Source of the DNA: a virus
Virus record (IMG/VR): IMGVR_UViG_3300042987_001095
Coordinates: 1-21,550 of that record
DNA: 21,550 nt
Direction: 5' to 3' (one strand)
Shown in pieces: positions 4,601 to 21,183 of the stretch; the stretch's first letter is position 1, and each line of letters starts with the position of its first letter. Position numbers and translations under genes: made by a program. The notes beneath the pieces were generated by a model. That model had not been told where the DNA came from, made no database searches, and saw nothing but the letters and a program-made list of their open reading frames with translations.

Positions 4601-6744
4601 ATACTATAGCACTAGAATCTTTAAGATCCGAATTTGAACTAACCAGACTTGCCGAAGAAATGAAAAAAGGCAATATTGAAGAAGATGTCGGTGCAAAACG
4701 GCAACAAGAGTTAAAAGCTGTAATTAAAACAAATGAAGATATATTAAAAGCAGCAAGCGGCGGTAGTAGAGGTATAGAAGCACTAATGCGTGATCCAGTA
4801 TCAGCATCATACCGCGAACAATTAACACAAATGCTTGGTTTAATTACTGCTAAAGACAAAGCCAACCAAGAAGCTCTAAATAAAACACTACAATCAGAAT
4901 TTAAGGGCAGGATAGATCAATTATCTCTTGTATTTCAAGCAAAAGCTAAGTTGTTACAAGATACATATAATAGTATCGCTATAAGTACTAATATATTAGC
5001 AAGTGGTCCAGAAGCCGAAGTGTTTAAAGAAGAGATGCAACTTGTATTACAAAGATTAAAAGATCAAGAAAAATTACTAGATTTTGAAAATACACTGGGA
5101 GCCCTACAAATAAAGCTAGAAGCTACACGAAGAGTAGGTGGTAAAACAGGTGTAGTAGAAACTGAAATTGAAGGTGTAAAAGCTAAACAGCAAATTCAAA
5201 AACAACAGCAAGAAGAAGCTGAAAATATAAGAAAAGCTGCATTTGAACGAAGTAAGTCAATTAAATTATTAGAGCGCGAAACAGAAATAAGTATACAGCT
5301 ACTAAATATTAGCAAAGAGCGTATAAGAGGTACAACAATAGGTGCAGAACAACAACGAGTAGAATTAGATAGACGTGTTAGAAAACTTGAACAAGATTTA
5401 AATACTGCTCGCCGAGACAAAGACTTAGCAGAAGCTAGAGATGCTGCATCTAGAGCACAAGCTCAACTGGCACAAATTGGGCCAGGAGATTTAGAAGATA
5501 TGAGCGAAGCTGAGAGACTTAGGTACGAGGCTCTTCAGGGAAGCGTAAAATATGCTGAAAGATTAACAAAAGTTTATGCTCAACTTGGTATGTTGGCAAC
5601 ATATGCTGAAAATTCTAAACGCTTTAGTGAAGATATAGACATTGCTATAAAAGGTATTGAACAATATAAAATACAACTAGAAGCTGTTAGAATTATTGAA
5701 CAAGCTCGTGAACAAGTAACAATAGATGCTTTAAACGATGAAATAAAGCTACAAGACTATAGACTTGAAAGAGCGCGTGATCAATATAAAATTACTGATG
5801 ATCAATATAAAACGGAAAAATTAAGAGCAGAATTAAGAAAAATTGACGCTGATTTAGCACAAAAACTAGCACAAAATACCTATGAGTTAGCTATAGCCGA
5901 AGCAGAATTAAAACGAGTCAGAACCCAAGAAGGTCCTGCAACGGCAATAGATTATGTATCTGGTGACGTATACGAAACTGACAAATCTCCTGAAGAAAAA
6001 CGCGCACAAGCCAGAGTTAATGCACTTAAAATTAGTCGTCAAGGTTTTGAGGATGCAGCTAGTAGGGCTAGATCTTTTGCCGAAGAACAACTGCAAGTGT
6101 TTACTAGAGAAGAATCCTATGGACAAGCATTTATCAAAATGTTTAAAAACATGGAAGACGCGATAGTAGAATTTACACAAACTGGGAAATTTAGTTTTAA
6201 AGGCATGGTTAATAGTTTTTTACAAGACTTACTGCGTTTTGAAACTAATAGGTTAATGCGCAGTTTACTATCTGGACTAGGAGGTAGCGAAAGCTTAGCT
6301 ACTGGTCTAATTGGTGGAACAAAATCTATATTAAGTTTATTTGGTTTTGCCGGCGGCGGCGTAACTAATATTGGTAAAATGGCTAAAGGTTATGCAATGG
6401 GTGGTATTGTTGATAAACCTACGTTATTTACTTTTGCTAATGGTGGCACAACTAATTTAGGTGTTGCAGGCGAAGGTAAATATTCAGAAGCTATTGTTCC
6501 TCTACCAGATGGTAAGAGTATACCAGTTGTTATGAATGGAAAATCACCTCAAATAAGCATATCTGTAAATAACTATGGCAAAGAACAAGTAGATGTAAAA
6601 GAAACTACTGACGGCCGTGGTAATCCTAGTATAGAATTTACAATAGGTAATATGGCTGCAGGTGAGTTAAGTAAAACTAATAGCGCAATGCAGCGAAGCT
6701 TTACTAATGCTTTTGGCATTAGGCCTATGGTAGGAGCACGATAA
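1606..6744 (+). CDS. Tail length tape measure protein
   Basis: At 1712 residues this is the longest gene in the window; the tape measure sets tail length, and the protein is ejected ahead of the DNA. GGAG at 1597-1600 sits 5 bases before the ATG. Residues about 85-285 contain the Gly/Ala/Met-rich tape measure core, including a 'GITKLEPELLDELGI' stretch. Hydrophobic segments occur near 306-318 and 550-575. Residues about 330-480 and 640-1480 are mostly charged heptad-like coiled coil. Residues about 1490-1560 (SFAEEQLQVF, GKFSFKGMVNSFLQDLL) match the lambda gpH-type C-terminal domain. A Gly-rich stretch ends in 'AGEGKYSEAIVPLPDG' (from residue 1621), the typical C-terminal signature. At about 0.15 nm per helical residue, the length predicts a tail of roughly 250 nm. 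The next gene starts one base after the stop. Confidence 0.96.
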   Translation: MAGNRIDINLSVQDQGKTLQNRTNDAKNLNKELERAQNLISGTKTGNQAARRAGLTPGMEGPEVRDYNVSRGVSGGGGASARDFADQARGLGGLVRLYATWAANIFAVSAAFNALRDSMSTEMMVRGLDQLGAASGMAMGGIAKDFARASDGAISLREAMEATAKAMSSGMSQQQFMQLGAVAKGASQALGINMSDAVSRLTRGITKLEPELLDELGIFTKVGKATEDYARSIGKAEAQLTDFERRQAFANAVLKEGTEKFGAIAQEANPYDKLLAELKNTAQNILSVVNALITPVVKLLADNTNLIGAAIALAAFKLTKQALPELGRWQKGLKDAAEDAKERAKQINSAFQEAFVEKSEAAAGIPGLKKNVEQAKKDLQYAQRELAGVTSDKRTTGSGWFKEATTAEVLSEKTLTKLQEDQARLSTSNVESKKRQGLASEKLLSAQQNLIKAEKELEKASQNVGDSMERRARIGSELWQREELLLNARSKAAQLDIRSRVGENVDKLGLLGGIGALIDETKANKDISTLGKIKTVGVGSFTAIFRAAEILMSSLGRMFNIVAIGYTAFELLDSMLSTNSKAAKEFTEKLGQLEEANKNAALTAEKFKNSLSSEAIIAYSNSFSNLTKQLSDTIQGLKDLERESNRWDNFLDKLADWTIGFDSRNEKAGKEIGKTIENAIKLAPVGPARDTLEKKYREILGIDKKLPINARTVAKALDSISDAKFDITMDAVEKATNEANKEFGSANKLLSGLKDAADANTKAFQNLSNSVTDKSPLQEFLTSSIRLSGQLSAALSDPNNLSKLGAAAFIDKIESVKGLNPALLQDFSQATLEFEKLNIQAEDYRKTIFEAQAKLRELPAARGEIGKELQSRGGFAADIVKGSRREDPQEILRRQLQQTISTAETELQKITPELLNIQDKIRVVLEKSAQDSVDKFISTAKLGLSKLQVQAKQIVIELVPEARTVETIQERMRLEKEAIEVERRLASIQLDLVLEEKRNTIALESLRSEFELTRLAEEMKKGNIEEDVGAKRQQELKAVIKTNEDILKAASGGSRGIEALMRDPVSASYREQLTQMLGLITAKDKANQEALNKTLQSEFKGRIDQLSLVFQAKAKLLQDTYNSIAISTNILASGPEAEVFKEEMQLVLQRLKDQEKLLDFENTLGALQIKLEATRRVGGKTGVVETEIEGVKAKQQIQKQQQEEAENIRKAAFERSKSIKLLERETEISIQLLNISKERIRGTTIGAEQQRVELDRRVRKLEQDLNTARRDKDLAEARDAASRAQAQLAQIGPGDLEDMSEAERLRYEALQGSVKYAERLTKVYAQLGMLATYAENSKRFSEDIDIAIKGIEQYKIQLEAVRIIEQAREQVTIDALNDEIKLQDYRLERARDQYKITDDQYKTEKLRAELRKIDADLAQKLAQNTYELAIAEAELKRVRTQEGPATAIDYVSGDVYETDKSPEEKRAQARVNALKISRQGFEDAASRARSFAEEQLQVFTREESYGQAFIKMFKNMEDAIVEFTQTGKFSFKGMVNSFLQDLLRFETNRLMRSLLSGLGGSESLATGLIGGTKSILSLFGFAGGGVTNIGKMAKGYAMGGIVDKPTLFTFANGGTTNLGVAGEGKYSEAIVPLPDGKSIPVVMNGKSPQISISVNNYGKEQVDVKETTDGRGNPSIEFTIGNMAAGELSKTNSAMQRSFTNAFGIRPMVGAR

Positions 6745-7108: not shown

Positions 7109-7680
7109 GTAGACTAAATAGCTTATCTGCATCAGCAATACGTGCCATGTTCTCGTCTGAAACAGACGAGCAGTTAATCACGCTTTTAACAATTAAAGAT
7201 CCTGATGGTGGTACAGATGATGTAAGATTGGCTGATAGTTTTACTGGCAGACTGACAGGTTCAGTAACAAACTGGACAACTCAAGAGCTAGAGACTATAG
7301 AAGGCTACACTGATGAAAGTGATGTAATTTATGGTGTTACATTTGCTGGTGATGATTACTGGTTTATACCCATGCAAATTAATTTACCTACTGAAGAAGA
7401 AACAGGAGTTGGTAATTTAACTATAAATATTAACTATGTTACTCCAGAAGCCATTGTATTGATTAGAAAATACCTAGTTAAACCTACTGAAGTAATAATT
7501 AGTTTAGTTTTATCAAGCAAACTAACAGGACCTGCTGAAGTAGTATTTCCTAAATTCTATATTGTAGCAGCAACTTATAGCGCAGAAAGTATACAACTAC
7601 AACTAGAAATGATTAATTTTACCAGAGAACCATTTCCTAGTTTTACCTTTTCACCATTATATTTTCCGGGGTTATTCTAA
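7105..7680 (+). CDS. DUF1833 family minor tail protein (gpL-like position)
   Basis: The product has 191 residues. The N-terminal part reads 'DEQLITLLTIKDPDG..DDVRLAD' and the C-terminus ends 'PFPSFTFSPLYFPGLF', both of which I recognise as features of the DUF1833 family found in siphovirus tail tip clusters. In lambda the L gene sits here, between M and K, and its product helps build the tip. The gene overlaps its upstream neighbour by 4 bases and its downstream neighbour by 1 (TAATG), which implies translational coupling; its own Shine-Dalgarno is poor. Family membership is fairly secure. Functional equivalence to gpL is inferred from position and size class. Confidence 0.85.
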   Translation: MSRLNSLSASAIRAMFSSETDEQLITLLTIKDPDGGTDDVRLADSFTGRLTGSVTNWTTQELETIEGYTDESDVIYGVTFAGDDYWFIPMQINLPTEEETGVGNLTININYVTPEAIVLIRKYLVKPTEVIISLVLSSKLTGPAEVVFPKFYIVAATYSAESIQLQLEMINFTREPFPSFTFSPLYFPGLF

Positions 7681-10600
7681 TGAATTATGATAAATATATT
7701 GGTTTACCTTATCAAAATAATGGTAGAGATATAACTGGTATTGATTGCTGGGGCTTGGCAAGATTATTCTATAAAAATGAATTAAATATTGATTTACCTA
7801 GTTATGTAGAGTTGTATGATGGCAGCTACGACCCTAAGGCTGTAGCTGCCATTAATTATTATAAAGATAATTGGACTAAAGTAGAAGCGCCACAAACAGG
7901 TGATCTATGCTTGTTTAACATAATGGGTGAGCCTAGTCATGTAGGCGTTTACCTAACTAACAATAAGTTTTTACATAGTCGTGATGGCAAAGATAGTGTT
8001 ATTGAAGCACTAGATAGCCCTATGTGGTTTAAACGACTAGCAGGATTTTATCGATACACAGAAAAAAGTCCACTAGCTGTATATGGCAGCCCACATCCAC
8101 TACAGTGGAATCAAGCTGTAGAGTTTGCACAGCCTGGTACTAATTGCCAAGCTTTTGCAAATTATATTGCAACAAAATATAGTCTTAGTAGTGGCTTTGC
8201 TAAGCAATTAATTATTACTATAAATGGTATACCAGTACCACAAGATCGCTGGAACACTACCTATTTTGAAAAAGATCAAGTAGTAAACTACAAGATTGTA
8301 GCACAGGGTCGCCAAGGAGCACGAACTTTAGCTACTATTGCAGTTATAATTGCTGCCTACTATTTTGGTGGCATGTTAGGAGAAGCCCTATTTGGTACTC
8401 CAACAGCAGCAACTATAGGGGGAATTGATGTAGCGGTTATTTCAACCCCTGCTTGGGCAAAAGTAGCCGGCACACTGGCTATACAATTTGCTGGCATGGC
8501 ACTTGTAAATGCAGCTTTTCCTATAAGGCCACCAAAAGATCCTGGACAAGCTATACCAACTAATATGTTTGCTGGTACTCAAAATCAAGCAAATCCGTTT
8601 GGTGGAATACCGGTTGTGCTTGGAAAAACTCGTGTAACTGGACTGCTAGGTGCTACACCATACCTAGAAACTTTAAGTACAACTAGCTTATTACACTTAA
8701 TAATTATTTGGGGATTTGGCCCACTATGGGTTGATACAGAAAGTATCAGTGTTGGTTCAACAAAAATTACTAGCTTATATCATGATCGAGCACTAGCTTA
8801 CAATCGTCCAGTACAGTTTACACTAGCTGGTACTGATGTAGAAACTAGCTGGGAAACAAAAACATTTAATGAGTTTTACCCTAGTGATGTACAACAACTG
8901 CCAGCTAGCCCAGTAGAGCTTATTAATAATAGTACTACTGGTAATCCGTGGACAACGGTTACATTTACACAACTAGCAACAAGTATACGTGTAGCTATTA
9001 ACTTTCCCGAAGGGTTACGTATGATAAATACGGAAAGCGGTGATAGTTATGCACATACTGTAAAATTTGCCATAGCAATATATCCTAGTACTTTTGGAGA
9101 TCCTGGCAGCACTACTGATAGCAGTGCCAATCAAAACATTAAACGCTATAGTGTAAACGAATCAACTATATTTTCATTAACCGCACCTGGAAGCATTAGC
9201 ATACCTAGTGGAGACGGTGCTGACACTAGCATTAGCCTATACAGAAAATGGATAATAGCACTAGAGCCTAATGCAGGCTTAAAGGTGTTTCCAGGTAGTG
9301 TGTCCGATGTTCTAGGAAACACAAGTAGTTACGATTTAACTACTGCATTACAATATTCTTCATATTCTTCACTGTTAGGTATTCAGAACTCACTATTATT
9401 TGAACCTGCTGTACCCAGCAATTGTTTAAAATTACATGAAATTATTATGGGACCTGGTGGTACGTTTACCCATAATAGCTTTTTAGGTAGTTTTGTTAAT
9501 CAAGGTACGGTTAGTGGTTTAACACTAACATATGCTAATGAAATTTTAAACGGCGAACCAACTGGTGGAAAACTAATAACAGTTGCCAGTGGTTATATAG
9601 AGTCTAGTACCACAAATAGCCCAGCAATAGAAACAGATGAGTTAGTATTTAGCGGTAGAACAGATTTGCCAAATGCTGTAGCAGTTACTAACACTAGTAA
9701 TGTTTGGGCAAATGAATTCTTACGAAATAATGCTGTATGGGCTAGCACAACTACCACAGACCCTAATTCGGGGCAACCAAATACAAACTTATATATAGAT
9801 CAAACTAATGTTGTATTTCCATATAGTGGATATTATACTATAGATCTTGCAGCCGATAATTGGGCTGAAGTATATATTAATAATGTACAGAAATCTTCTA
9901 CTGCTAATAGTTTTAAAGAAGATCAAGAAGGTGGTATAGCTGTAGGCACTGTAAGAAATCAAGTTTTTGTTAGCGCAGGAACTTATCCTGTAAAAGTAGT
10001 AGGCAGAAATAGAAGTGGTGATCCGCAACCAAATCCTAGCCTACAGAACAGTAACAGGGGAGTAGCTTGCGTTATTAGATTTTATTGGGACGGAGTTTAT
10101 AACGTTAATTTAAATCGTGGTTGGGAACTAAAAGTAGAAACTAGAAACGAAAAAGATGGCTTTAATGTTATCTATGATTTTCCTAATTTACCAAGAGATA
10201 ACTATATTGTGCGGGTAAAGCGCCTAACAGCTGATAATACAAGCGCAGGAAAAACACAGTTTGCACATAAAGCTTATTTATATGCAATTACTGCTAGTGA
10301 CACAACAGTAGCTCCATTAAATCCGCTGCCCACAAGAACCTGGACAAATATACTCAATGATAGTGGTACCCTTACTCAACAAATTACTAATAAACGCAAC
10401 TTAGCAAGAACAGCTATAACAGTACAAAGTACTAATAAAGTCAATGGTACTTTAGAAGGCGTTAATGCACTAGTACAAACAATGGCACTAGACTGGGACA
10501 CTGCTAGCGGTACATGGATACTAAGAAAAACTAGTAATCCGGCCAGTTTATTTAGGTATGTTTTACAGCATACTGCCAATACCTACCCAGTTAGTGACAA

Positions 10601-12620
10601 TGAATTAAACCTATCTGCTTTGCAGGAGTGGCACGAATTTTGTAATCAAGTTACAACCATAAAGCCTAAATTTGAGTATAACAATGTTTTAAACAGCACA
10701 CAAAGTTTAATGGAAGTATTAAAGGATATAGCCGCAGCAGGTATGGCTAGCCCTACTTTTGTTAATGGTAAGTGGAGCGTGGTAGTAGATAAACCTCGCA
10801 GTTATACAGTACAGCATTTTACGCCACACAATAGCTGGGGCTTTAGCAGTACTAAGTCCTTAGTATTTATACCAGATGCTTTTAGAATTAGTTTTCCAAA
10901 TGAAGTTAAAGCATATCAAGCCGACGAAATAGTTGTGTATAACTATGGCTATGCCGAAACTAACGGATATATTGTTACAGCACCAAGCTTTATTAGTGGT
11001 AATACTTATAAAATAACTTATTTAGGCAACACTAACTGGACTGCTATAGGATATAATGGAACACCACAAATAGGTGGTACTTTTGTTAAAAACGGCACTG
11101 CTGCAACTGGTCTAGGACGTGCTTTTAGTACACAAACTCATACTGTTAGTAGTACAGTTAGACAAGTAGAAGCAGCACAAAAATTTGAACAACTAAGTTT
11201 ACCTGGTGTAACAAATGCAAATCAAGTAAGATATTTTGCACGCTGGCATCTAGCGCAGCTTAAGTTACGCCCAGAAATTTATACTATAAATGCTGATTTT
11301 GAGTATCTTGTTTGTACACGCGGAGATTTAGTTAAGGTAACGCACGACGTACCTCTTTGGGGTAGTGGAAGTGCTAGAATTAAATCGGCTACAGGTGTTG
11401 ACAATAAGGTAATATTTTTAACAGAAAAAATACTATTTAATTCCTCAAAAGTATACCACATATTGATTAGAAAAAATCCTGCTAGTTCTCCTAGTGTTCC
11501 AGGCATAACGGCTGTGCCTACTGTTAAAGCAACTATAGTTCCAGCAGTTTATAATTCAGTACTACAAGAATATGAAGCAGCTACTACCAGTGATTACTAT
11601 GATATTGTTAAAATAACTACAGTATTAGAAGGTACATATAATTATATAACTACAAGCCCAGTTGCTACAACAAGCTATGTAGAACCAGACAATCTAGTAA
11701 TGATTGGTGAAGAAAATAAGGTAACACAGGAATTAATAGTATTAGGTATTCAACCTACTAATAATACTAGTGCAACCCTAACACTAACAGATTACAGCCC
11801 AGAAATATATACCAAAGACTTAGACGACGAGCATATAGCATTTAATGCTAATATTACACTAGAAAACTTAGATATAGTTAAGCGAACTATTACTAAACGT
11901 CCTACTATTATTGATGTAAGTAGTAGCAGTGGATTAAGTTCACAAGCAGCCACGGGAACATTTATTAATACAACTATTATTACTTTTAGTAATCCTGTAG
12001 GTTTACCACCGGTTGCAACTACTATTGAAGTAGAAGTAATATTAGGCGATGCTGTATTTGATAATAATACACCTAGAAACCCATATTATACAGATAAGCA
12101 GTCAAGTAGTATTAGTATACTTGGTTTAACTACTAATATGATTTATAAAACACGAGCTAGATATACTAATAATGAGAAGAGTGTATTTGGACCTTGGAGC
12201 GATGTTTTTACTTTCCAAGTAGCTGGAAAAAGCATTAATCCTTTTAATGCTAGCGATATAACTATTACTTTACAAGGTACAAAAATTATAGTTAAACCAA
12301 TTGTAGCTAGTGGTGTAGCTATACCGGCAGACCATAGTCACTATATTATTAAACTATATAGAAATAGTAGTTCAATAACTCAAGATTTTTGGTCAACAGT
12401 AGACCCTGCTAATATGTTAGAAGTAACAACAACGCCAAGCCAAGGAACAGCTACATTTGATCTCCTAGAAAAAGCTTCTAATGGCGTATATAAGTTAGCT
12501 GGTCAAAGAATCTCTGCTACAGGTATTAACTATAGAATTGCTTGCAGAGCTGTTAATAATACAGGAAATTATAGTAGTACAAGTGTACTAGGTAGTATAA
12601 AGATTAAGACGATACAGTAA
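7680..12620 (+). CDS. Fused tail tip protein: NlpC/P60 peptidase + I-like segment + J-like tip attachment protein
   Basis: This 1646-residue protein joins parts that are K, I and J in lambda. Residues 1-125 are an NlpC/P60 cysteine peptidase: Cys23 in 'GIDCWGLAR', His87 in 'SHVGVYL' and His99 in 'FLHS' fit the catalytic triad, so peptidoglycan cutting is likely. Residues about 130-215 ('INGIPVPQDRW', 'KDQVVNYKIVAQG') resemble the beta-grasp I/J N-terminal region. Residues about 218-275 are hydrophobic, as in J proteins. From about 295 ('NPFGGIPVVLGKTRVTG') to about 1390 is the J core, which forms the central tip hub. An extra beta-rich segment lies at about 625-805, and an 'ISGNTYKITYLGNTNWTAIG' motif at about 1104-1123. 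Fibronectin III-like strands follow from about 1390. The ATG overlaps the previous stop. J proteins carry host specificity, here possibly shared with the fibre genes. Confidence 0.92.
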   Translation: MNYDKYIGLPYQNNGRDITGIDCWGLARLFYKNELNIDLPSYVELYDGSYDPKAVAAINYYKDNWTKVEAPQTGDLCLFNIMGEPSHVGVYLTNNKFLHSRDGKDSVIEALDSPMWFKRLAGFYRYTEKSPLAVYGSPHPLQWNQAVEFAQPGTNCQAFANYIATKYSLSSGFAKQLIITINGIPVPQDRWNTTYFEKDQVVNYKIVAQGRQGARTLATIAVIIAAYYFGGMLGEALFGTPTAATIGGIDVAVISTPAWAKVAGTLAIQFAGMALVNAAFPIRPPKDPGQAIPTNMFAGTQNQANPFGGIPVVLGKTRVTGLLGATPYLETLSTTSLLHLIIIWGFGPLWVDTESISVGSTKITSLYHDRALAYNRPVQFTLAGTDVETSWETKTFNEFYPSDVQQLPASPVELINNSTTGNPWTTVTFTQLATSIRVAINFPEGLRMINTESGDSYAHTVKFAIAIYPSTFGDPGSTTDSSANQNIKRYSVNESTIFSLTAPGSISIPSGDGADTSISLYRKWIIALEPNAGLKVFPGSVSDVLGNTSSYDLTTALQYSSYSSLLGIQNSLLFEPAVPSNCLKLHEIIMGPGGTFTHNSFLGSFVNQGTVSGLTLTYANEILNGEPTGGKLITVASGYIESSTTNSPAIETDELVFSGRTDLPNAVAVTNTSNVWANEFLRNNAVWASTTTTDPNSGQPNTNLYIDQTNVVFPYSGYYTIDLAADNWAEVYINNVQKSSTANSFKEDQEGGIAVGTVRNQVFVSAGTYPVKVVGRNRSGDPQPNPSLQNSNRGVACVIRFYWDGVYNVNLNRGWELKVETRNEKDGFNVIYDFPNLPRDNYIVRVKRLTADNTSAGKTQFAHKAYLYAITASDTTVAPLNPLPTRTWTNILNDSGTLTQQITNKRNLARTAITVQSTNKVNGTLEGVNALVQTMALDWDTASGTWILRKTSNPASLFRYVLQHTANTYPVSDNELNLSALQEWHEFCNQVTTIKPKFEYNNVLNSTQSLMEVLKDIAAAGMASPTFVNGKWSVVVDKPRSYTVQHFTPHNSWGFSSTKSLVFIPDAFRISFPNEVKAYQADEIVVYNYGYAETNGYIVTAPSFISGNTYKITYLGNTNWTAIGYNGTPQIGGTFVKNGTAATGLGRAFSTQTHTVSSTVRQVEAAQKFEQLSLPGVTNANQVRYFARWHLAQLKLRPEIYTINADFEYLVCTRGDLVKVTHDVPLWGSGSARIKSATGVDNKVIFLTEKILFNSSKVYHILIRKNPASSPSVPGITAVPTVKATIVPAVYNSVLQEYEAATTSDYYDIVKITTVLEGTYNYITTSPVATTSYVEPDNLVMIGEENKVTQELIVLGIQPTNNTSATLTLTDYSPEIYTKDLDDEHIAFNANITLENLDIVKRTITKRPTIIDVSSSSGLSSQAATGTFINTTIITFSNPVGLPPVATTIEVEVILGDAVFDNNTPRNPYYTDKQSSSISILGLTTNMIYKTRARYTNNEKSVFGPWSDVFTFQVAGKSINPFNASDITITLQGTKIIVKPIVASGVAIPADHSHYIIKLYRNSSSITQDFWSTVDPANMLEVTTTPSQGTATFDLLEKASNGVYKLAGQRISATGINYRIACRAVNNTGNYSSTSVLGSIKIKTIQ

Positions 12621-12629
12621 GGATTAAAT

Positions 12630-15600
12630 ATGTCAGCAACATTAAATCCAGGCTTTAAGCAACTATATTTATATTTGACTAAGCCTACCAATGCTATAGA
12701 TATAGACGATGATAGCACCATAGGAAATCAACAGGCTATAGATAATAGCGTACGTGAAGATTTAATTGGCCTAAAAGTTTGGGCTAGCACTCAGCAAAAC
12801 TTTGATGCTAGCCAAACTCAACCGGTGTATGATGGAGTATTTAATACTACTACAGCTATTCAAAACTTAGCGGATAACACTACTTATTATGTAAGATATG
12901 CATTTATTAGTGCTATTGATGAAACCGTTTATACTATACTACCTGCTACTAATCCACTAAGTGAAAAAACACTAGACACTAATAGTGGTTTTACTGCTTA
13001 TTTAACACATGATCCAATTGAAATAGTAACAGATGAACTAGGTAATAATCCAGTATTTACAAATAATACTGGAACATTTAAAGTTTATGATAACACAGCA
13101 GATGTAACAGGTAATAGTAGTCTCGTAACTTATAGTGTAGTAGCAAATAGTTCAACAGGCGGTGTAGTTGCAACAATTAATGCACAAGGTGTGTATACTA
13201 TAACAGCTATTACAGATTTAACAGGAACTATTACCTTACGAGCTACTGCTGCACAAATTGCAGGAGTTTATGTAGACAAAATATTAAATGTAGCCAAACG
13301 TAGACCTGGTCAAACAGCTCCATTAGTAACTATTACTGGTACTGGATCATATTTTGTTGAAATAGCTAATGGTGGTGGTAAATACCCTGGTAGTTATACT
13401 TGGTCAGCTACTACAACTAATATTACTAGTCCACAATATACTTGGTATTTTGGTAGAACTAGTCAAGGTGCACTAATACCTGTAGAGGGTACTGGTGCCG
13501 GGTATACGGGTGGAGTACTTACAGGCTTATCATTAAACGGTAGTAAAAACGAAGTAACTATACAAAATTCAGTATTTAATAATCTAACTCCACCACAAGA
13601 AAAATTATTAAAAGTAGTAGTTACTAGTGGTGTTCAAGGTACAAATGTTAATGTATTTGATCAAGAAAGTATATTCTACTTACAAGAGGGTAGCGATGCA
13701 CTTGCAATAGATTTGGTAAATGGAAACCAAACTATTAGTTTAGACAAAGATGGTAATATTATTTCACCAACTAATATTCTTAGTCAAATATTAGTTGCTA
13801 GAGGTACTGACCTTGTTACTACTAATATTACATATGCTATAGCAGCTGTTGAATATATTACTAGTAATCAAATACAGCTTACTAGTGCCGGAGCTATAAC
13901 AATACCTAGCAGCGCCGTAACAGCAGATAGTGCTAGTGTGACTTTTAGTGCAACTGTAACTAATCCTGACAGTACCACTACTACTTTAACTAAGAAACTA
14001 ACACTTAATAGAGTACGTGATGGTCAAACCGGAGCTACAGGTACAAATATTAGTGTACAACTAACTAATGATTATCATGCTATACCTACAACATCTACAG
14101 GTGTTATAGGTACTTATCTAGGTGCAAATACTACTTTAGAAACCTATATAAATGGTATATTACAAACTACAGGATTTACTTATTATGTTAGTGGTTTACA
14201 AAATGTAAAGTATCGTGATAATGATGATACTAGTGATCGAACTGCTACAGGTGTTATTAATGGTTTAATTAGTAGCTTTCCTTTACAAATAGTAGAATTA
14301 ACAGCAGATAGTGGTACTATAGATATTACTGCTAAACAAAATAGTGATAATCAAGTTTTTACTAAAACCTTTACAGTTAGTAAAAATAAACAGGGTGTAC
14401 AAGGTAATGATAGTATAATTTATGAACTACGAGCAAGTACGAGTGCTATAGGTAAATATAGTATAGATCAAACTACAGATGGTACACATACACCTAGTAC
14501 AGTTAATTTTACTGTTTATAAAACTATTGGAAATCAATTACCACAGATATTAAATGATCAAAGTCTATACTATATTAAGTGGACTTCTGCTCAAGAACCA
14601 GCAAATAATGATAGTAACGCCTTGCAATTGCCAAGTAGTGGTGTAATAACACATGCTATAGGTAATACTGATGATATAGCTCATGTATCCGTAAAACTAT
14701 TAGTTAAAAATAGTGCAAACAATTATACACAAATTGATAGAGAGGAAATTCCTGTTGTATTTAGAGGAGCACCAGGGTTACCTAGTGTAGCAATTAATTT
14801 AAGCAATGATAGTCACCCACTACCAATTGATAGTTCAGGATCTGTATTAAGCTACAGTGGTGCAACAACTACAGGTAGCATTAATTTAGGTGGAGTTGAT
14901 AAAACTGGTGAGTGGACTTGGACAATAGATTTATTAAGTAGTAATTTAGGTACAGGTGGTAGTAGTGGTATTACAGCAAATATAGTTGGTAGCACAGTTA
15001 CAGTTAGTGGTGTAACCTCTAATTTTCTTAGTGGTATAGTAAGATTAAAAGCTAGTAAAATAGGATACTTAGACTCCTATAAAGATTTTTCTATATCAAA
15101 GATTAAAGCTGATATATATTATATAGAATTAACAAATGATGAACACTTTTTTAGTGCAGATTTAAATGGTAATGTTACTGATTTTACTGGTGCTACAACT
15201 ACAGCAACAGTTAAACTTGGAGGTATAGATGATTCAGCTAACTGGAGTTTTAGTACCCCAGTAGTTACTAGTGGTATAACTATATCAGTTAGTAATAATA
15301 ATAGAACAGTTACTGTTATAGGTCTTACTTCATCATTTAGAACCGGATCAGTAACTTTTACAGCTACTAGTGGAGTCAAGACATTAACAGAAACTTTTAG
15401 TTTAGTTAGTATTTTGCAAGGGCCTAAAGGCGATCAAAGTACTGTTCCAGGCAGTGATGGAAAAATAGGTTTAATTTCTAAAATAGCTTATTTAAAACTT
15501 ACACAACAGGATAAGTTATTAACTATAACTACTGCTACAACTACTGGGGCTAATAGCGTTCCAACCGGTACATATACTAATGCAAGCAACACGTCAACTA

Positions 15601-16823
15601 CTGCTACATTTAGTCAAACAGTACCCACATCTATTGAAGTAGGTGATGTAGTTTGGTACGCTTATGGTAGATATAATCCAAATACAACAACTCTTGACGG
15701 AGTAGCTGCTGGTACGATTGTTTGGGATCAGCCTATTGCAGCCAGTGTATTTCAAGATATTAAAAGCGATAATTGGCAAGCTAGCACCGGCTTTGATGGA
15801 AGTACGCCCACCGGCGGAATTTTTACTAGTGCAACAGGATACTATTTAAATAAAACTGAAGGTAGTCTTTATGCTACTAGGGTATATTTAAGAAAAGAAA
15901 CATCAGTAGACGCTATCAGAGCTCTTGGTAGCAGTGTAACTATTAACACGAATCCTCAGGTTATTAATACCGGCACCTATACTACAATTAAAAGTACTAT
16001 AGGTGCTATTTATAGTGGTCAAGCAGAGGCCGCTTATAATAATGGTATAATACGCGCTACTATGTTTGCAGGAACAAATTATGATGCTAGCGTTGCCTGG
16101 AATGTAGGACTAGTTGTACAATCTAAAGGTACTCCAACTGGACCTACTAGTGAAGGTACTAATCAAGGAACGGATAATAATATTGGCATAGTATCTTCTG
16201 CTACAAAATTTGGTGGATATTTTGAAACAACTACTGTTACAGGCACAGGCCTTATAGCTAAATATACAAATGCTGAAACTCCTGTTAAAGCTAATGGCGG
16301 CTATGCACTATGGGTAGAAGGAAATATGCGATGGGGTTCTAGCGTATGGACAATACCTCCAAATGATAATACAAAATTTCTTCGTAGCGACGGTGAGTGG
16401 GCAACTGCAGGAACGCCTAGTGGAGGAAATAGTGCTAATTTTTTACGTGGTGATGGTCAATGGACTAACGTACTACTAGGCGATTTATATGTTAGTGGTG
16501 AAATTACCGCATATTATTCCTCTGATATAAGCCTAAAAACAAATATCAGAAAGATAACTAATCCCCTAGAAAAATTATTATCTTTAGGTGGATATAACTT
16601 TGACTGGGCACAAGATTACCTTAAAAAACGTGATAGTAAAAGTGGTTTAATTAAAACTAGTGATGTAGGTATAATTGCTCAAGAAGTACAAAAAGTTATG
16701 CCAGAAGTTGTAGTAACTAGAGAAGATGGTATGTTAGCAGTAAATTATCATAAATTAATTCCACTTATTATTGAAGCTATAGCAGAACTCAATAATAAAA
16801 TAGATAGTAAACAAGGAAAGTAG
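12630..16823 (+). CDS. Tail fibre with Ig-like repeats and C-terminal S74 intramolecular chaperone
   Basis: The product has 1397 residues; AAGGA at 12619-12623 overlaps the preceding stop and lies 6 bases before the ATG. Residues 1-120 look like fibronectin III, as in J C-termini, so they may dock on the tip. Four related Ig-like units start near residues 358, 474, 720 and 830. Collagen-like linkers join some of them (GQTGATG, GVQG, GAPGLP, GPKGDQ). Two 'FLR(S/G)DGxW' segments (about 1249-1280) precede the C-terminal peptidase S74 domain. That domain has the expected dyad Ser1298 (SSD) and Lys1303, then 'VGIIAQEVQKVMPEVV' and 'VNYHKLIPLIIEAI'. S74 domains help phage fibres trimerise and usually cleave themselves off. 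The region about 940-1250 is the likely stalk or receptor-binding part (inferred). Confidence 0.93.
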   Translation: MSATLNPGFKQLYLYLTKPTNAIDIDDDSTIGNQQAIDNSVREDLIGLKVWASTQQNFDASQTQPVYDGVFNTTTAIQNLADNTTYYVRYAFISAIDETVYTILPATNPLSEKTLDTNSGFTAYLTHDPIEIVTDELGNNPVFTNNTGTFKVYDNTADVTGNSSLVTYSVVANSSTGGVVATINAQGVYTITAITDLTGTITLRATAAQIAGVYVDKILNVAKRRPGQTAPLVTITGTGSYFVEIANGGGKYPGSYTWSATTTNITSPQYTWYFGRTSQGALIPVEGTGAGYTGGVLTGLSLNGSKNEVTIQNSVFNNLTPPQEKLLKVVVTSGVQGTNVNVFDQESIFYLQEGSDALAIDLVNGNQTISLDKDGNIISPTNILSQILVARGTDLVTTNITYAIAAVEYITSNQIQLTSAGAITIPSSAVTADSASVTFSATVTNPDSTTTTLTKKLTLNRVRDGQTGATGTNISVQLTNDYHAIPTTSTGVIGTYLGANTTLETYINGILQTTGFTYYVSGLQNVKYRDNDDTSDRTATGVINGLISSFPLQIVELTADSGTIDITAKQNSDNQVFTKTFTVSKNKQGVQGNDSIIYELRASTSAIGKYSIDQTTDGTHTPSTVNFTVYKTIGNQLPQILNDQSLYYIKWTSAQEPANNDSNALQLPSSGVITHAIGNTDDIAHVSVKLLVKNSANNYTQIDREEIPVVFRGAPGLPSVAINLSNDSHPLPIDSSGSVLSYSGATTTGSINLGGVDKTGEWTWTIDLLSSNLGTGGSSGITANIVGSTVTVSGVTSNFLSGIVRLKASKIGYLDSYKDFSISKIKADIYYIELTNDEHFFSADLNGNVTDFTGATTTATVKLGGIDDSANWSFSTPVVTSGITISVSNNNRTVTVIGLTSSFRTGSVTFTATSGVKTLTETFSLVSILQGPKGDQSTVPGSDGKIGLISKIAYLKLTQQDKLLTITTATTTGANSVPTGTYTNASNTSTTATFSQTVPTSIEVGDVVWYAYGRYNPNTTTLDGVAAGTIVWDQPIAASVFQDIKSDNWQASTGFDGSTPTGGIFTSATGYYLNKTEGSLYATRVYLRKETSVDAIRALGSSVTINTNPQVINTGTYTTIKSTIGAIYSGQAEAAYNNGIIRATMFAGTNYDASVAWNVGLVVQSKGTPTGPTSEGTNQGTDNNIGIVSSATKFGGYFETTTVTGTGLIAKYTNAETPVKANGGYALWVEGNMRWGSSVWTIPPNDNTKFLRSDGEWATAGTPSGGNSANFLRGDGQWTNVLLGDLYVSGEITAYYSSDISLKTNIRKITNPLEKLLSLGGYNFDWAQDYLKKRDSKSGLIKTSDVGIIAQEVQKVMPEVVVTREDGMLAVNYHKLIPLIIEAIAELNNKIDSKQGK
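13701..15420 (+). repeat. Diverged tandem Ig-like protein repeats within the fibre gene
   Basis: Four units of roughly 100-115 residues start with related strands: LAIDLVNGNQ (13701), ISVQLTNDYH (14049), VAINLSNDSH (14787) and YYIELTNDEH (15117). The last two are adjacent and closest, sharing 'GATTT' then 'LGG(V/I)D' and a W that starts the next strand. A different domain type (about residues 593-712) separates units 2 and 3. The repeats are visible in protein but diverged in DNA, so they are old duplications. Confidence 0.75.
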
Positions 16824-17147
16824 ATGAGTAATAATTATACTAAACAACAAGGTCCAATAGGATATGCTTGGCTAGAACCATTAAATTTTAATTTTGGGCC
16901 TATCGAAAACACTATGCGATTTTATGTTATTGAACAACAAAAAGTTGTAATAGATAATAATGGCAATACAGTAAATACTGGGCAAAATTATGTTGAGCAA
17001 TACTATAATCCAGATTTAGTAATTCCTATCCTAGATACTACTACAATGCAGCCTACAGGACAAACAATAACTTTTGAACAGTTGTATGACTATATGTATT
17101 CATTATATGTTAAAGCAGCAACCGAAAGAGATCAAAGATTTTTATAG
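16824..17147 (+). CDS. Small hypothetical protein between fibre and protease-adhesin genes
   Basis: I do not recognise this 107-residue protein. It begins immediately after the fibre stop codon (TAG then ATG) with AAGGA at 16813-16817, so it is clearly translated with the fibre. It is rich in Tyr, Gln and Asn, has no Cys, membrane segment or signal peptide, and carries an N-terminal 'GPIGYAWLEPLNFNFGP' stretch. Its C-terminal third (TFEQLYDYMYSLYVKAATERDQ) looks helical and may be an oligomerisation or partner-binding helix. Its place between two large distal fibre genes suggests a fibre connector, a head-fibre or collar-like subunit, or a fibre assembly chaperone. All of these are inferences from position. 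Confidence 0.8.
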   Translation: MSNNYTKQQGPIGYAWLEPLNFNFGPIENTMRFYVIEQQKVVIDNNGNTVNTGQNYVEQYYNPDLVIPILDTTTMQPTGQTITFEQLYDYMYSLYVKAATERDQRFL

Positions 17148-17170: not shown

Positions 17171-20100
17171 ATGAGTGATTACAAAGAATATGTAGTCTGT
17201 TTAAAACAAGGAGAAGATGTAACTAGTTTTAGAGAGGATATGGAAACTCCTGGAGGAGCACTCTATATTCCCAATAGATCAGTTACGTCTACTTTTAAAG
17301 TTGATATTAGTAGAAACACTACTTATCTATTAACCAAAGAAGAAGCACTAACACTAGCAGAAGATCAACGTGTGTTATTTGTAGAGCCAAAACTGCCTAT
17401 GATGGTAACACCACACTACACTAAAACTGCACAAATATTTAGTAATATTTTCAGTTCAAATCATTTAGCTTGGGGAAAGTATAGAACCGCTGCCAGACAA
17501 GCTAGCAGCAATATTTATGCTCTTAATACTACAAGATTAGGTAGTATTAATGCAGGGTTTGGTAGCTATCGCAACGGTAAAGATATAGACGTTGTATTAT
17601 TTGATGATTTAATATTAAGTAGTCACCCCGACTTTAATGACGCCTACGGCCAATCTAGAGTTATTAATTATAACTGGCACGCTCATGCTGCTAGTGTAGG
17701 TTTTACTGAAAAAATAGGCCAACAATACGGCTATGCTAGAAATTGGGATGATAATCATGGTACTAGTACAGCTAGTATTATGGCAGGATTACGCTATGGT
17801 TGGGCACCAGAAGCAAATATCTATAATATTCGTGGACTAGGATATGGATCAGGTAGATATGATCCTATAGCCTATGGTGCAACTGGTAGTATCGAAGGAG
17901 CTATGTGGTATATTTATTATTTTCACATAAATAAACCACTGCACTCTACCTGGGGTAATAGAAACCCAACTATTGTTAATGCTTCTCTAGGTTACCAATA
18001 TTGGATAACTACCGGTTCAAGTTTATCAGCAAGTAGTAGAACTGAAAATAGTACATTTTCTTTTCCTACAGTAGTAAATATTGTAGGGGCAGATGGTGTA
18101 ACATATAATAATCCTGGTAATTGGTCACTGGCCGCACTACGTGATGATCCATTTCGTATTAATTTAGTAAATGGCAATATGGCTAATGGTGGTGATGGTC
18201 AATTATATTGGCTTATAGAAGCCTGGATTCCTTGGGTTGAACAAGATTTTATTACTCAGCAAAGTTTAACTAGTGGTATTGTTTGGACAGCATCTGCTGG
18301 AAACAATAGACAATACTATGCTACCCCTAGTGATCCATACTATAACGTAAGAGTTAATTTTACTGATGGTGGTTGGCTATATCCAAATCGCGGATCTATG
18401 CCAGCTTCAGCAAGTACAAGTGTAATGGCTGCTGCATTAGAGTACTATGATAGACCAGCAACTTATACTGCTAGAGGTACTAGACCAGATGTGTTTGCTC
18501 CTACATCTTCTATGGCAGCATACGCTAATACTTCTTGGGGATACTATCCAACAAATTCTAGTTACGGTATAACCATATTTAGTGGCACTAGTAATTCTAG
18601 TCCAGAAGCCGCTGGAGTGATTGCTTTATGGGCTCAACAACAACGTGAGACTGGAAACTATAGCAGTATAAATGGTGCAACAGCAAGAAACTTATTTAGC
18701 AACGGTACACTATCAGTAGCTCAACTACAATCTGACGGAGGCCCTTGGTATAGTGAATACAGTAGTCAGTACTCTAATAATAGAATATTAGCTGCTGGCA
18801 CCAGCTCAAATGCTAGAACTGTAATACCAACGCCAGTTACAGCTAGCAGTATACAAACAGAATTAGGTGGCGGTAATCCTATTGCAATCAGTGAATATGT
18901 AGCCGCAACACCAAAAACTTATGGTAGTTTAGCCTATGCTAGTAGTAGCAATATAACAGACGAAGAATTTGATATAGTTAGTATAACAGTAACTCCGTCT
19001 ACAAACGGTGGCGAATATAATATAACTGTTAAAAGTAATATTACAGCTCCTAGTAATATTATTATCTCAATTACTGCTAGTAATTATGTGGCCGGAGCTG
19101 GAGCTGGAGCTGGTACACTAACTAACTTTGAAACTGTAATTATTAAACAAGGATCTAAGGTTGCTATAAAATCTGGTAAATTAAATCCTTATCAAGTTGG
19201 TAATATAGGACTAACTACAGTAGCTTATTATGGGTGGAAACAACTTACTAGTAGATCTACAACTTGGCTAATAGGTGCTAATAATGCAGCTGCTACATAT
19301 AACAAAGAATTTTATTCACTAAGTCCAAATACTACTACAGTAGCACAAGGATCACAAGTAACATTTACTGTTCATACTGTTAATGTACCAGACCAAACTT
19401 TATATTGGTCAACTAGCAATGCAACTTCTGCTAATAGTGACTTTACAGCAACTAGTGGCAGCTTTAGTTTAGCTAATGGTACCGGCACTATTACTATAAC
19501 AACTACCAGTACAAATACTATACTTGCTGATAGTAGTAACTCATTTGCTGTTGATATTAGAACTAGTAGCGGAGGACCTATTGTAGCTACTTCAAAAGTA
19601 GTTAATATACTTAATAGTGGGCAAAAAGTAACACAAGTTTATAGTTATACAGGAAGTAGCCAAAGTTTTGTAGTTCCTAGTGGCGTAACTAGAGTAACGT
19701 TTAAGCTATGGGGGGCAGGAGGCAGCGGCAGAGATCACTATGGTGGCAATGGCGGTTATACTCAAAGTACACTAGCTGTTCAAGCCGGACAAGTTTTTAG
19801 TATTAATCCTGGTGAAGCTAGCTGGATTAGAGATGGTAGTACTAATTACGGTGGTGGTAGACGTAGCTACTATGATGGTGACAATGGTGGTGGAGACGGC
19901 GGCGGTCGTAGCTGGATTACAAGAAGCGGCATAAGTGGAGACATACTAACAGCAGGCGGTGGCGGAGGTGGTGGTAGCTTTGGCACTAGTACATCACAAA
20001 ATAGTAATGTTATAGCTAGTACTTTTACAAACGGTGGTGGTAGTGGTGGAGGACTAATAGCAGGCAGTAGTCCTGATATGCGAGGCGGTGGTGGTGGCAC

Positions 20101-20638
20101 TCAATATGGAGCAAGTGGTAAAATCTGGGGTTATATTGGCAACGGCAGTGGTATTGGCTATGATCAAGATAATAACTATATTATTATTCCATCAGGGGGT
20201 GTTAGTGCTTATCAAGCCTATGGTATACAATATTTAGGTGGTAGAACTAGCACTGGCTGGACTGGTGGAGGTGGTGGGGGCGGTTACTATGGTGGTAACG
20301 CTGGCTTTGGCACTGACTATGGCTATGCTAATTATATTTCACATGGTGGTGGCGGAGGCGGTAGCGGCTGGGTTGGCAGAAATGGCTCTAGCATTTTAAC
20401 TGGCACTAACTACGCTACTTTAAGTGATTATGGAAATGTAATTAACTTAATGGATGCCAGTGGTCGTACAGACAGTAATACAGGAATAGTGTACTATAAT
20501 ACTGCATGTGTGCAAAGTCCTGCTGCACCTGGCCTAGTAGCAAATAGTTTAGATAGTGATTATGGCAGCAATGCCGGTCGTGGCAGTGTACAAACTACTC
20601 CTGGACACGGCAGAATAGTTGTAATATATTATGTATAG
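17171..20638 (+). CDS. Subtilisin-like (S8) serine protease fused to a glycine-rich adhesin-like domain
   Basis: The product has 1155 residues with AGAGG 7 bases before the ATG. Residues about 5-80 resemble a subtilase propeptide (YVVCLKQGED ... VLFVEPKLP). Residues about 130-545 are the S8 domain with all key residues: Asp145 in 'VVLFDD' followed by SSHPDF, His196 in 'NHGTSTASIMAG', Asn378 in 'SAGNN' and Ser474 in 'GTSNSSPEAAG'. Residues about 715-815 resemble a Calx-beta/Ig-like domain (VAQGSQVTFTVHT ... LYWSTSN). Residues about 825-1155 start 'GVTRVTFKLWGAGGSG' and hold repeated runs of Gly (GGGGGGG), like the ALK/LTK-type glycine-rich domain and phage adhesins such as T-even gp38. There is no signal peptide, which fits a virion protein. 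Likely roles are digestion of host surface proteins or self-cleavage to mature the adhesin. The enzyme class is secure; the target is unknown. Confidence 0.92.
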   Translation: MSDYKEYVVCLKQGEDVTSFREDMETPGGALYIPNRSVTSTFKVDISRNTTYLLTKEEALTLAEDQRVLFVEPKLPMMVTPHYTKTAQIFSNIFSSNHLAWGKYRTAARQASSNIYALNTTRLGSINAGFGSYRNGKDIDVVLFDDLILSSHPDFNDAYGQSRVINYNWHAHAASVGFTEKIGQQYGYARNWDDNHGTSTASIMAGLRYGWAPEANIYNIRGLGYGSGRYDPIAYGATGSIEGAMWYIYYFHINKPLHSTWGNRNPTIVNASLGYQYWITTGSSLSASSRTENSTFSFPTVVNIVGADGVTYNNPGNWSLAALRDDPFRINLVNGNMANGGDGQLYWLIEAWIPWVEQDFITQQSLTSGIVWTASAGNNRQYYATPSDPYYNVRVNFTDGGWLYPNRGSMPASASTSVMAAALEYYDRPATYTARGTRPDVFAPTSSMAAYANTSWGYYPTNSSYGITIFSGTSNSSPEAAGVIALWAQQQRETGNYSSINGATARNLFSNGTLSVAQLQSDGGPWYSEYSSQYSNNRILAAGTSSNARTVIPTPVTASSIQTELGGGNPIAISEYVAATPKTYGSLAYASSSNITDEEFDIVSITVTPSTNGGEYNITVKSNITAPSNIIISITASNYVAGAGAGAGTLTNFETVIIKQGSKVAIKSGKLNPYQVGNIGLTTVAYYGWKQLTSRSTTWLIGANNAAATYNKEFYSLSPNTTTVAQGSQVTFTVHTVNVPDQTLYWSTSNATSANSDFTATSGSFSLANGTGTITITTTSTNTILADSSNSFAVDIRTSSGGPIVATSKVVNILNSGQKVTQVYSYTGSSQSFVVPSGVTRVTFKLWGAGGSGRDHYGGNGGYTQSTLAVQAGQVFSINPGEASWIRDGSTNYGGGRRSYYDGDNGGGDGGGRSWITRSGISGDILTAGGGGGGGSFGTSTSQNSNVIASTFTNGGGSGGGLIAGSSPDMRGGGGGTQYGASGKIWGYIGNGSGIGYDQDNNYIIIPSGGVSAYQAYGIQYLGGRTSTGWTGGGGGGGYYGGNAGFGTDYGYANYISHGGGGGGSGWVGRNGSSILTGTNYATLSDYGNVINLMDASGRTDSNTGIVYYNTACVQSPAAPGLVANSLDSDYGSNAGRGSVQTTPGHGRIVVIYYV
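19094..19111 (+). repeat. Short tandem repeat (GGAGCT)x3
   Basis: Three exact copies of GGAGCT encode the Gly-Ala run of 'VAGAGAGAGT', between the protease domain and the Calx-beta-like domain of the protease-adhesin. It probably serves as a flexible linker and could change in copy number by slippage. Confidence 0.75.
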
Positions 20639-20645
20639 TTGTAAT

Positions 20646-20685
20646 AATACCCTGCCTAAAAAATTAGTTGGGCAGGGTATTTTTT
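20646..20685 (+). terminator. Intrinsic terminator after the protease-adhesin gene
   Basis: AATACCCTGCC (20646-20656) pairs over 11 bp with GGCAGGGTATT (20671-20681). The loop is 14 bases and the T run is 20680-20685. It begins 8 bases after the stop codon and ends the long tape measure-to-adhesin block. Confidence 0.92.
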
Positions 20686-20689
20686 ATTA

Positions 20690-20718
20690 TTGACTTTAGT
20701 TAGCCCTTGTGGTATAAT
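20690..20718 (+). promoter_or_regulatory. Sigma70-type promoter with extended -10
   Basis: The -35 is TTGACT (20690-20695), the spacer is 17 bases, and the -10 is a perfect TATAAT (20713-20718) preceded by TGG. It begins 4 bases after the terminator T run. Its CCCTTGTGGTATA (20704-20716) is identical to that in the promoter at 1524-1552. The predicted start near 20725 gives a leader of about 114 bases to the ATG at 20839. Confidence 0.9.
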
Positions 20719-20838
20719 AGGTTAAAATCATAAAAGCGTCAATAAATTTTTACTTGACATAAGCAACACTAGAATATTAGTGGCGGCTAGGTCTTAACAC
20801 AGTAGATGTAAACCACTGCTAATAGAAAAGGAGCTGCA
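20719..20838 (+). promoter_or_regulatory. Leader region with possible long-range stem
   Basis: This stretch has no gene. TATTAG-TGG (20775-20783) can pair with CCA and CTAATA (20813-20815 and 20819-20824), with a 3-base bulge on the right arm, ending just before the AGGAG ribosome binding site (20829-20833). The loop is long (29 bases), so stability is doubtful. A second TTGACA (20754-20759) has no good -10 at normal spacing. No riboswitch or tRNA fold was recognised. Confidence 0.4.
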
Positions 20839-21183
20839 ATGGTTGAAGTAGAAAATCATAGCCTGATACAGACACTTTCTGTAGCGGGTATGGCTATAAT
20901 TGCCCTTTCAGTAGGCATACAAAAGTTAATTAAAGATTGGCGTAGTACTGATGCAGAAACCAGTGTTATAGAAATGATGCACAAAGAGTTAGAACGCATG
21001 GGTACGCAGAACGCTAAACTTACAGATGAATTAACTAAATTACAGAATGATATAGTAGAACTAAACAGTCAGCTTACAAAACTTAATATAGAGAATAATA
21101 AGTTGCAAGAAGAAATTGCTGCGCTTACTAGTGAACTTAATAGTTTTAAAAAATTAGCAGCACTAAGAAAGGTTAAGGTGTAA
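20839..21183 (+). CDS. Small membrane-anchored coiled-coil protein
   Basis: The product has 114 residues with AGGAG at 20829-20833, 5 bases before the ATG. Residues about 11-30 (TLSVAGMAIIALSVGIQKLI) form one hydrophobic segment. The rest (about 45-108) is a strong heptad coiled coil, for example 'ELERMGTQNAKLTDELTKLQ', with leucines and isoleucines at regular spacing. A basic KLAALRKVKV ends it. One N-terminal membrane anchor plus a coiled coil is the layout of phage i-spanins (lambda Rz) and of some holin-associated proteins, and placement after the tail genes fits the start of a lysis module. No o-spanin, holin or endolysin is visible nearby, so the lysis role is only an inference; a virion or membrane-associated accessory protein is also possible. 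Confidence 0.85.
   Translation: MVEVENHSLIQTLSVAGMAIIALSVGIQKLIKDWRSTDAETSVIEMMHKELERMGTQNAKLTDELTKLQNDIVELNSQLTKLNIENNKLQEEIAALTSELNSFKKLAALRKVKV

Follow-up and report, generated by a model that had tools for sequence, protein, structure and literature searches.

Phage tails are known for enzymes that cut sugars and cell walls. In a review of the envelope-breaching enzymes of tailed phages, the words "protease" and "proteolytic" are absent (PMC6116005). Subtilisin-like (S8) peptidase genes of cyanophages were listed by Sullivan et al. in 2010 (PMC3037559), and glycine-rich tips, e.g., gp38 of S16, are known adhesins (PMC6851490). The locus considered here lies in IMG/VR record IMGVR_UViG_3300042987_001095, which was analyzed in its entirety (21,550 bases, referred to as the window). 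Its tail operon ends with a gene for an 1155-residue protein in which an S8 protease is followed by a glycine-rich C terminus. This protein is interpreted as a self-processing protease on the tail fiber or tail tip that would cut a host surface protein, a reading to which a probability of about 50% is given on the basis of sequence and structural models. The initial annotation of the window, made from its sequence, had pointed to no characterized phage system of this architecture. In outline one was known, as the S8 family had already been annotated in cyanophages (PMC3037559). This kind of S8 protein is functionally unstudied in the accessible literature, and its glycine-rich fusion in a siphovirus-type tail is new.

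Protease domain and propeptide

The window protein belongs to the S8 (subtilase) family by the order of its Asp, His, and Ser residues, its oxyanion Asn, and its predicted subtilisin fold. The Pfam profile Peptidase_S8 (PF00082) matched with an E value of 1.2e-13 (51.5 bits against a cutoff of 21.8) when residues 1 to 560 were scanned. It was not listed when the full 1155 residues were scanned against Pfam, so automatic annotation can miss the domain. The structural model (AlphaFold2, 60 sequences) aligns in VIA-align with the keratinase 5wsl (Z score, 30.7; root mean square deviation [rmsd], 2.8; 274 residues aligned) and with unprocessed pro-Tk-subtilisin 2z2z (Z score, 29.7; rmsd, 4.9; 346 residues aligned), and its structural matches are pro-subtilisins and proteinase K-like enzymes. 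A chance open reading frame (ORF) with S8-like residues is ruled out by the profile and fold matches.

The initial annotation had assigned D145, H196, N378, and S474 as a complete set of catalytic residues; these positions are exact and correspond to the active-site residues of relatives in the alignment. Loss of these residues among relatives, named at that time as an argument against a protease, is not what the family displays. They are aligned in 80 of 80 sequences of a first sample and in 122 of 125 sequences of a wider, nonredundant sample, the other three being rows with large insertions that fall outside the trimmed alignment. Because the complete active site is kept in relatives with just 26 to 36% identity to the window protein, catalysis appears to be under selection. 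The flanking positions of the window copy, on which the initial annotation was silent, are unusual: the His motif reads HGTS, its fourth position being His in 79 of 80 sequences, and the Ser motif reads GTSN (GTSNSSP), the form in 79 of 80 sequences being GTSM.

A propeptide-like N terminus had also been proposed, and the AlphaFold2 model bears this out. Residues 1 to 81 are predicted to form a domain with a beta-alpha-beta-beta-alpha-beta pattern directly before the S8 domain, with predicted local distance difference test (pLDDT) scores mostly of 84 to 95. Pro-Tk-subtilisin aligned from model residue 3 onward in VIA-align, and the propeptide is conserved among relatives (ISRNTHY..DPRV). The Pfam family Inhibitor_I9 (PF05922) did not match the window protein even at an E value of 10 and matched the S-CREM1 relative at 0.15 only; the domain is propeptide-like by predicted fold and is not a Pfam I9 member. 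Residues 82 to 135, between the propeptide and the S8 domain, are the expected region of self-cleavage. No signal peptide or membrane helix was found in the protein (maximum 19-residue hydropathy, 1.18; N terminus, 0.34), in accord with the initial annotation, and the lack of a signal peptide fits a phage structural protein.

Phage S8 family and its fiber partner

The S8 part of the window protein falls in PHROG 9158 (E value, 1.2e-50), with a match over residues 4 to 780 that spans the propeptide and the S8 domain. Annotated members of PHROG 9158 are from cyanomyoviruses and are labeled "subtilisin-like serine protease," "peptidase," or "hypothetical protein"; in the P-SSM2 record, PF00082 is noted in T4-GC292. 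Among the matches listed, one profile scan of IMG/VR gave at least 451 confirmed relatives, and a second gave at least 427, confirmed by the catalytic half alone. The family is therefore abundant, and it appears almost exclusively viral because one scan of genome contigs gave just 3 loci, all in two assemblies derived from metagenomes. Relatives mostly measure about 550 residues and end in a [YFW]PR tail, which is C-terminal in 76 of 77 complete relatives and internal in the 77th (L077). Some carry added domains, e.g., alpha/beta-hydrolase-like ones, or long extensions, and some are recorded as virion proteins. In L008:7986-10910 (ACG-2014h), the S8 domain is followed by an alpha/beta-hydrolase-like (esterase) stretch and then a copper-binding-like domain, making a two-enzyme tail protein possible. 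In three other relatives (L171, L244, and L174), the Asp and His motifs are separated by a large insertion, which is of roughly 270 residues in L171 and L244 and has an esterase-like stretch in S-TIM54 (L174).

The S8 gene is strictly linked to a fiber-like gene. In the first sample, the distance between the stop of the upstream fiber-like gene and the S8 start is −4 to +3 bp in all 77 relatives with a readable upstream gene; ten more loci, cut or without such an ORF, were not counted. A C-terminal domain of about 110 residues is common to all 77 upstream genes, whose N-terminal parts are fiber-like and highly variable, with features such as collagen-like repeats and, in some, a baseplate-connector domain (PHROG 677). 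The end domain lies at the extreme C terminus of its protein in 80 of 80 cases and is modeled as a compact beta-sandwich (pLDDT, 95). No fold name is assigned to it because its structural matches are weak (best Foldseek E value, 0.012, to the HFTV1 turret; VIA-align Z scores up to 6.4, with many ties, one of them to the C-terminal domain of Tk-SP). This domain, present at L019:9646-9987 and in 76 further loci, matches two PHROGs without an assigned function (9627 and 15343).

A reverse test, which begins with the end domain and asks which gene comes next, covered 79 genes. The S8 gene was immediately downstream in 70 and further on in 1, and 8 had no S8 gene. The seven of these eight that were read all have an unrelated protein of 469 to 784 residues in the S8 slot at nearly the same spacing, which looks like the exchange of a tip module. 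The slot protein (L121:3314-4720, L134, L136, L139, L141, L143, and L158) often begins MAITTTT..GWARTDVIDQLEQAFTWLG, and the two members scanned, L121 and L158, gave no PHROG match.

The end domain also co-occurs with the [YFW]PR tail. In a second sample, both were present in 53 cases, neither was present in 17, and a tail-like match alone was present in 2 (Fisher test, 1e-14); of these 2 exceptions, that in L185 has a long extension in which the match probably arose by chance. The tree needs only 2 or 3 changes to separate the domain/tail classes, so the co-occurrence does not represent many independent events, and docking of the tail on the fiber end domain is suggested but not strongly so. 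Relatives without the end domain also mostly lie close behind another gene, several of these genes being recognizable fibers. Delivery by the tail, as proposed in the initial annotation, gains indirect support from the fixed position of relatives behind fiber-like genes.

C-terminal extension of the window protein

The window differs from most of the family in this pairing. A hidden Markov model of the end domain finds nothing in the window (best E value, 0.82), the upstream neighbor of the S8 gene is an unrelated 107-residue ORF, and the [YFW]PR tail is absent. Either the tail and the partner domain were once present and were lost, or they were never there; the window S8 protein carries a 600-residue extension instead. 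An immunoglobulin-like stretch at residues 717 to 780, absent from the initial annotation, falls within this extension. The last 326 residues are 27% Gly, with nine GGG+ runs. The first 52 residues of the glycine-rich region resemble ALK_LTK_GRD (E value, 0.0011; 19.4 bits against 24.5) and Gly_rich_2 (E value, 0.0065; 16.9 bits against 24.3), both short of the curated cutoffs, and neither family matches the whole region in Pfam. Of the polyglycine adhesin-like domain described in the initial annotation, the glycine richness and the adhesin-like pattern stand. The "adhesin" label is based on the glycine pattern and the precedent of S16 gp38 (PMC6851490) and denotes resemblance.

Single-sequence scans of viral contigs found no relative of the glycine-rich part or of the full-length protein. 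The glycine-rich part had no sequence match in the PDB, and both it and the middle region were unmatched in annotated phages. The order of S8 domain and glycine-rich domain, for which a search in other phages had been proposed, is found in at least one other contig: the 784-residue protein of L077 consists of S8, the YPR tail, and then a Gly_rich_2 domain (Pfam, 3e-19).

Proposed role and alternatives

The S8 protein would be made late, as befits the last gene of the tail operon. The propeptide would fold the enzyme and then be removed by self-cleavage near residues 82 to 135, and the subtilase would sit on the tail, its likeliest place being the far end of the fiber or the tail tip. The immunoglobulin (Ig)-like and glycine-rich C terminus may attach or aim the enzyme, probably by binding a host surface structure, and would thereby replace both the short tail of relatives and the end domain of their neighboring fiber. 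On contact, the S8 domain would cut a host surface protein and so give access to the receptor and to the cell wall, on which the J protein would then act through its NlpC/P60 domain. We infer each of activity, presence in the virion, and a host substrate, as well as action on the host rather than in assembly, from what sequence or models indicate: an intact active site, a propeptide, an S8 fold, a position in the tail operon, and relatives behind fiber-like genes. A broader scheme is offered tentatively, with chances a little short of even. Many aquatic phages may carry an exchangeable proteolytic fiber tip held by a conserved end domain, as gp38 is in S16-like T-even phages; the window tip may have become self-sufficient by fusion with its own glycine-rich recognition domain; and protein coats may be cut on contact as depolymerase tailspikes cut sugars.

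Several points weigh against surface proteolysis by the window protein. In the tree, its S8 copy stands alone on a long branch (2.34 changes per site), with an unsure place among the family classes, and because of this branch and of HGTS and GTSN beside the active site, its activity may be reduced or changed. No relatives of the C-terminal 600 residues were found, and AlphaFold2, for lack of relatives, gave nothing usable for residues 521 to 1155 (pLDDT, about 33). The position of relatives is not simply transferable to a protein that has neither the partner domain nor the C-terminal tail. Direct evidence of virion incorporation or proteolysis was not found for any family member in the accessible literature, and a literature search that covered few subscription journals turned up no study of how such a tail protease functions.

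The main rival is an assembly or maturation protease whose targets, while the tail is being built, would be the neighboring fiber, the 107-residue protein, or the enzyme itself, and which would play no part at the host. The strict, near-zero-spaced linkage to a fiber-like gene also suits an enzyme and its substrate, self-cleavage is implied by the very presence of a propeptide, and the S74 intramolecular chaperone of the window fiber belongs to a class in which self-cleavage is known. This explanation is judged less likely than the surface role. The slot behind the partner can be filled by an unrelated nonprotease, and the partner can therefore do without a protease in some phages; the end domain of the partner is intact, closes its protein in every case, and shows no obvious extension that could be cleaved; and fused glycine-rich, Ig-like, or hydrolase-like domains would be more natural for action at a surface.

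Two further alternatives are improbable. Some phages have virion proteins that enter the host, and the absence of a signal peptide would agree with a protease that is carried into the cell with the DNA or that targets host proteins in the cytoplasm. However, a folded 1155-residue protein with a glycine-rich end, encoded at the tip-proximal end of the operon, is unlikely to be ejected, and the fiber linkage of relatives points to the virion exterior. A pseudo-enzyme, in which the S8 fold is merely a structural or binding head, would accommodate the atypical HGTS and GTSN motifs and the fast divergence of the window copy but would be surprising given the retention of all four catalytic residues, both here and in the wider sample (where insertions left three sequences unresolved), and would make the conserved propeptide superfluous.

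If the protein does cleave a host surface protein, a tail-borne protease would provide a separate route through protein coats, e.g., S-layers, and host-range ideas for aquatic phages could be tested by one catalytic-serine change. The pairing of S8 with a conserved fiber end domain, a result of this analysis, opens the tip-protease idea to direct testing. The present results also allow annotation of the widespread S8 family and of its fiber partner domain, to which PHROGs assigns no function.

Tail operon and neighboring genes

The tail module lies on a single strand in the order tail chaperones, tape measure, two minor tail proteins, NlpC/P60-J, fiber, 107-residue ORF, S8, and terminator (Table 1), and from these tail genes the phage is probably a siphovirus. 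No domains common to the S8 protein and other window proteins were found, and a single-sequence scan of viral contigs gave zero relatives of the 107-residue protein. Among annotated phages, Curvibacter phage P26059A has the J protein nearest to that of the window (33.9% identity), and its record has a gene order similar to that of the window through the fiber and no S8-annotated gene in the stretch examined.

NlpC/P60 is the N-terminal part of a J/TipJ-type protein (7680-12620) that also has a weak PA14 match. Residues 84 to 308 of the tape measure (1606-6744) resemble T5-type tape measures, and its C terminus is lambda-type. The region at 20646-21183 is read from its sequence as the start of the next transcription unit; after the strong terminator and the promoter-like site, it encodes a small protein that weakly resembles Rz-type spanins, begins with a hydrophobic stretch near its N terminus, and includes a coiled coil.

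Table 1. Features of the S8 protease gene and its surroundings in the window
Feature	Coordinates	Strand	Evidence
S8 protease/glycine-rich tail protein, 1155 aa	17171..20638	+	ATG start
I9-like propeptide, aa 1-81	17171..17413	+	AlphaFold2; pro-Tk-subtilisin alignment; conserved in relatives
S8 catalytic domain, about aa 136-515	17576..18715	+	Pfam Peptidase_S8 at aa 136-493; Foldseek and VIA-align subtilase matches
Catalytic Asp145 (VVLFDD)	17603..17605	+	Invariant, 80/80
Catalytic His196 (HGTS)	17756..17758	+	Invariant, 80/80
Oxyanion-hole Asn378 (SAGNN)	18302..18304	+	Invariant, 80/80
Catalytic Ser474 (GTSNSSP)	18590..18592	+	Invariant, 80/80
Ig-like stretch, aa 717-780	19319..19510	+	Pfam Ig_3, E 0.0005-0.002, under curated cutoff
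Glycine-rich C-terminal region, aa 825-1155	19643..20635	+	27% Gly; start resembles ALK_LTK_GRD and Gly_rich_2, under cutoff
107-aa ORF, between fiber and S8 genes	16824..17147	+	No clear family in profile scans
Tail-fiber gene, 1397 aa, C-terminal S74 intramolecular chaperone	12630..16823	+	Pfam Peptidase_S74, 2.9e-14; tail-fiber PHROGs
NlpC/P60 fused to central tail tip J, 1646 aa	7680..12620	+	Pfam NLPC_P60, 5e-17; PHROG 31 central tail fiber J, 1e-63
Tape-measure protein, 1712 aa	1606..6744	+	Tape_meas_lam_C, 3e-10
Intrinsic-terminator-like hairpin, 14 pairs, closes tail operon	20646..20681	+	
Promoter-like site of next transcription unit	20690..20718	+	11/12, extended -10; consensus match only

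Comparison with known systems

The described proteins closest to the window protein are those of cyanomyoviruses in PHROG 9158: SCREM1_165 of S-CREM1, SRSM4_039 of S-RSM4, PSSM2_297 (T4-GC292) of P-SSM2, and the proteins of S-H38 and S-WAM2. Like the window protein, they have a homologous propeptide and S8 domain (about 25 to 33% identity) with the same active site, and their genes lie beside tail-fiber or baseplate genes. S8 relatives are mostly about 550 residues long, with a [YFW]PR tail and an end-domain gene upstream, whereas the window protein lacks both, has 600 extra residues, and belongs to a siphovirus-type tail module.

S16 gp38, a separate fiber-capping protein with a glycine-rich recognition region (PMC6851490), is of a type marked by a polyglycine type II sandwich, a three-helix N-terminal attachment domain, and a beta-helix; it is likened to the window protein by its glycine pattern only and, unlike it, has no described protease domain. 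L077 shares with the window protein the order of S8 domain and glycine-rich C terminus but has the YPR tail between these parts and a partner fiber upstream, and the two glycine-rich parts have no BLASTP similarity. Pro-Tk-subtilisin, pro-subtilisin E, and other secreted subtilases share the propeptide and S8 fold with the window protein. Secreted subtilases carry a signal peptide, whereas the window protein has none and is encoded in a phage tail operon.

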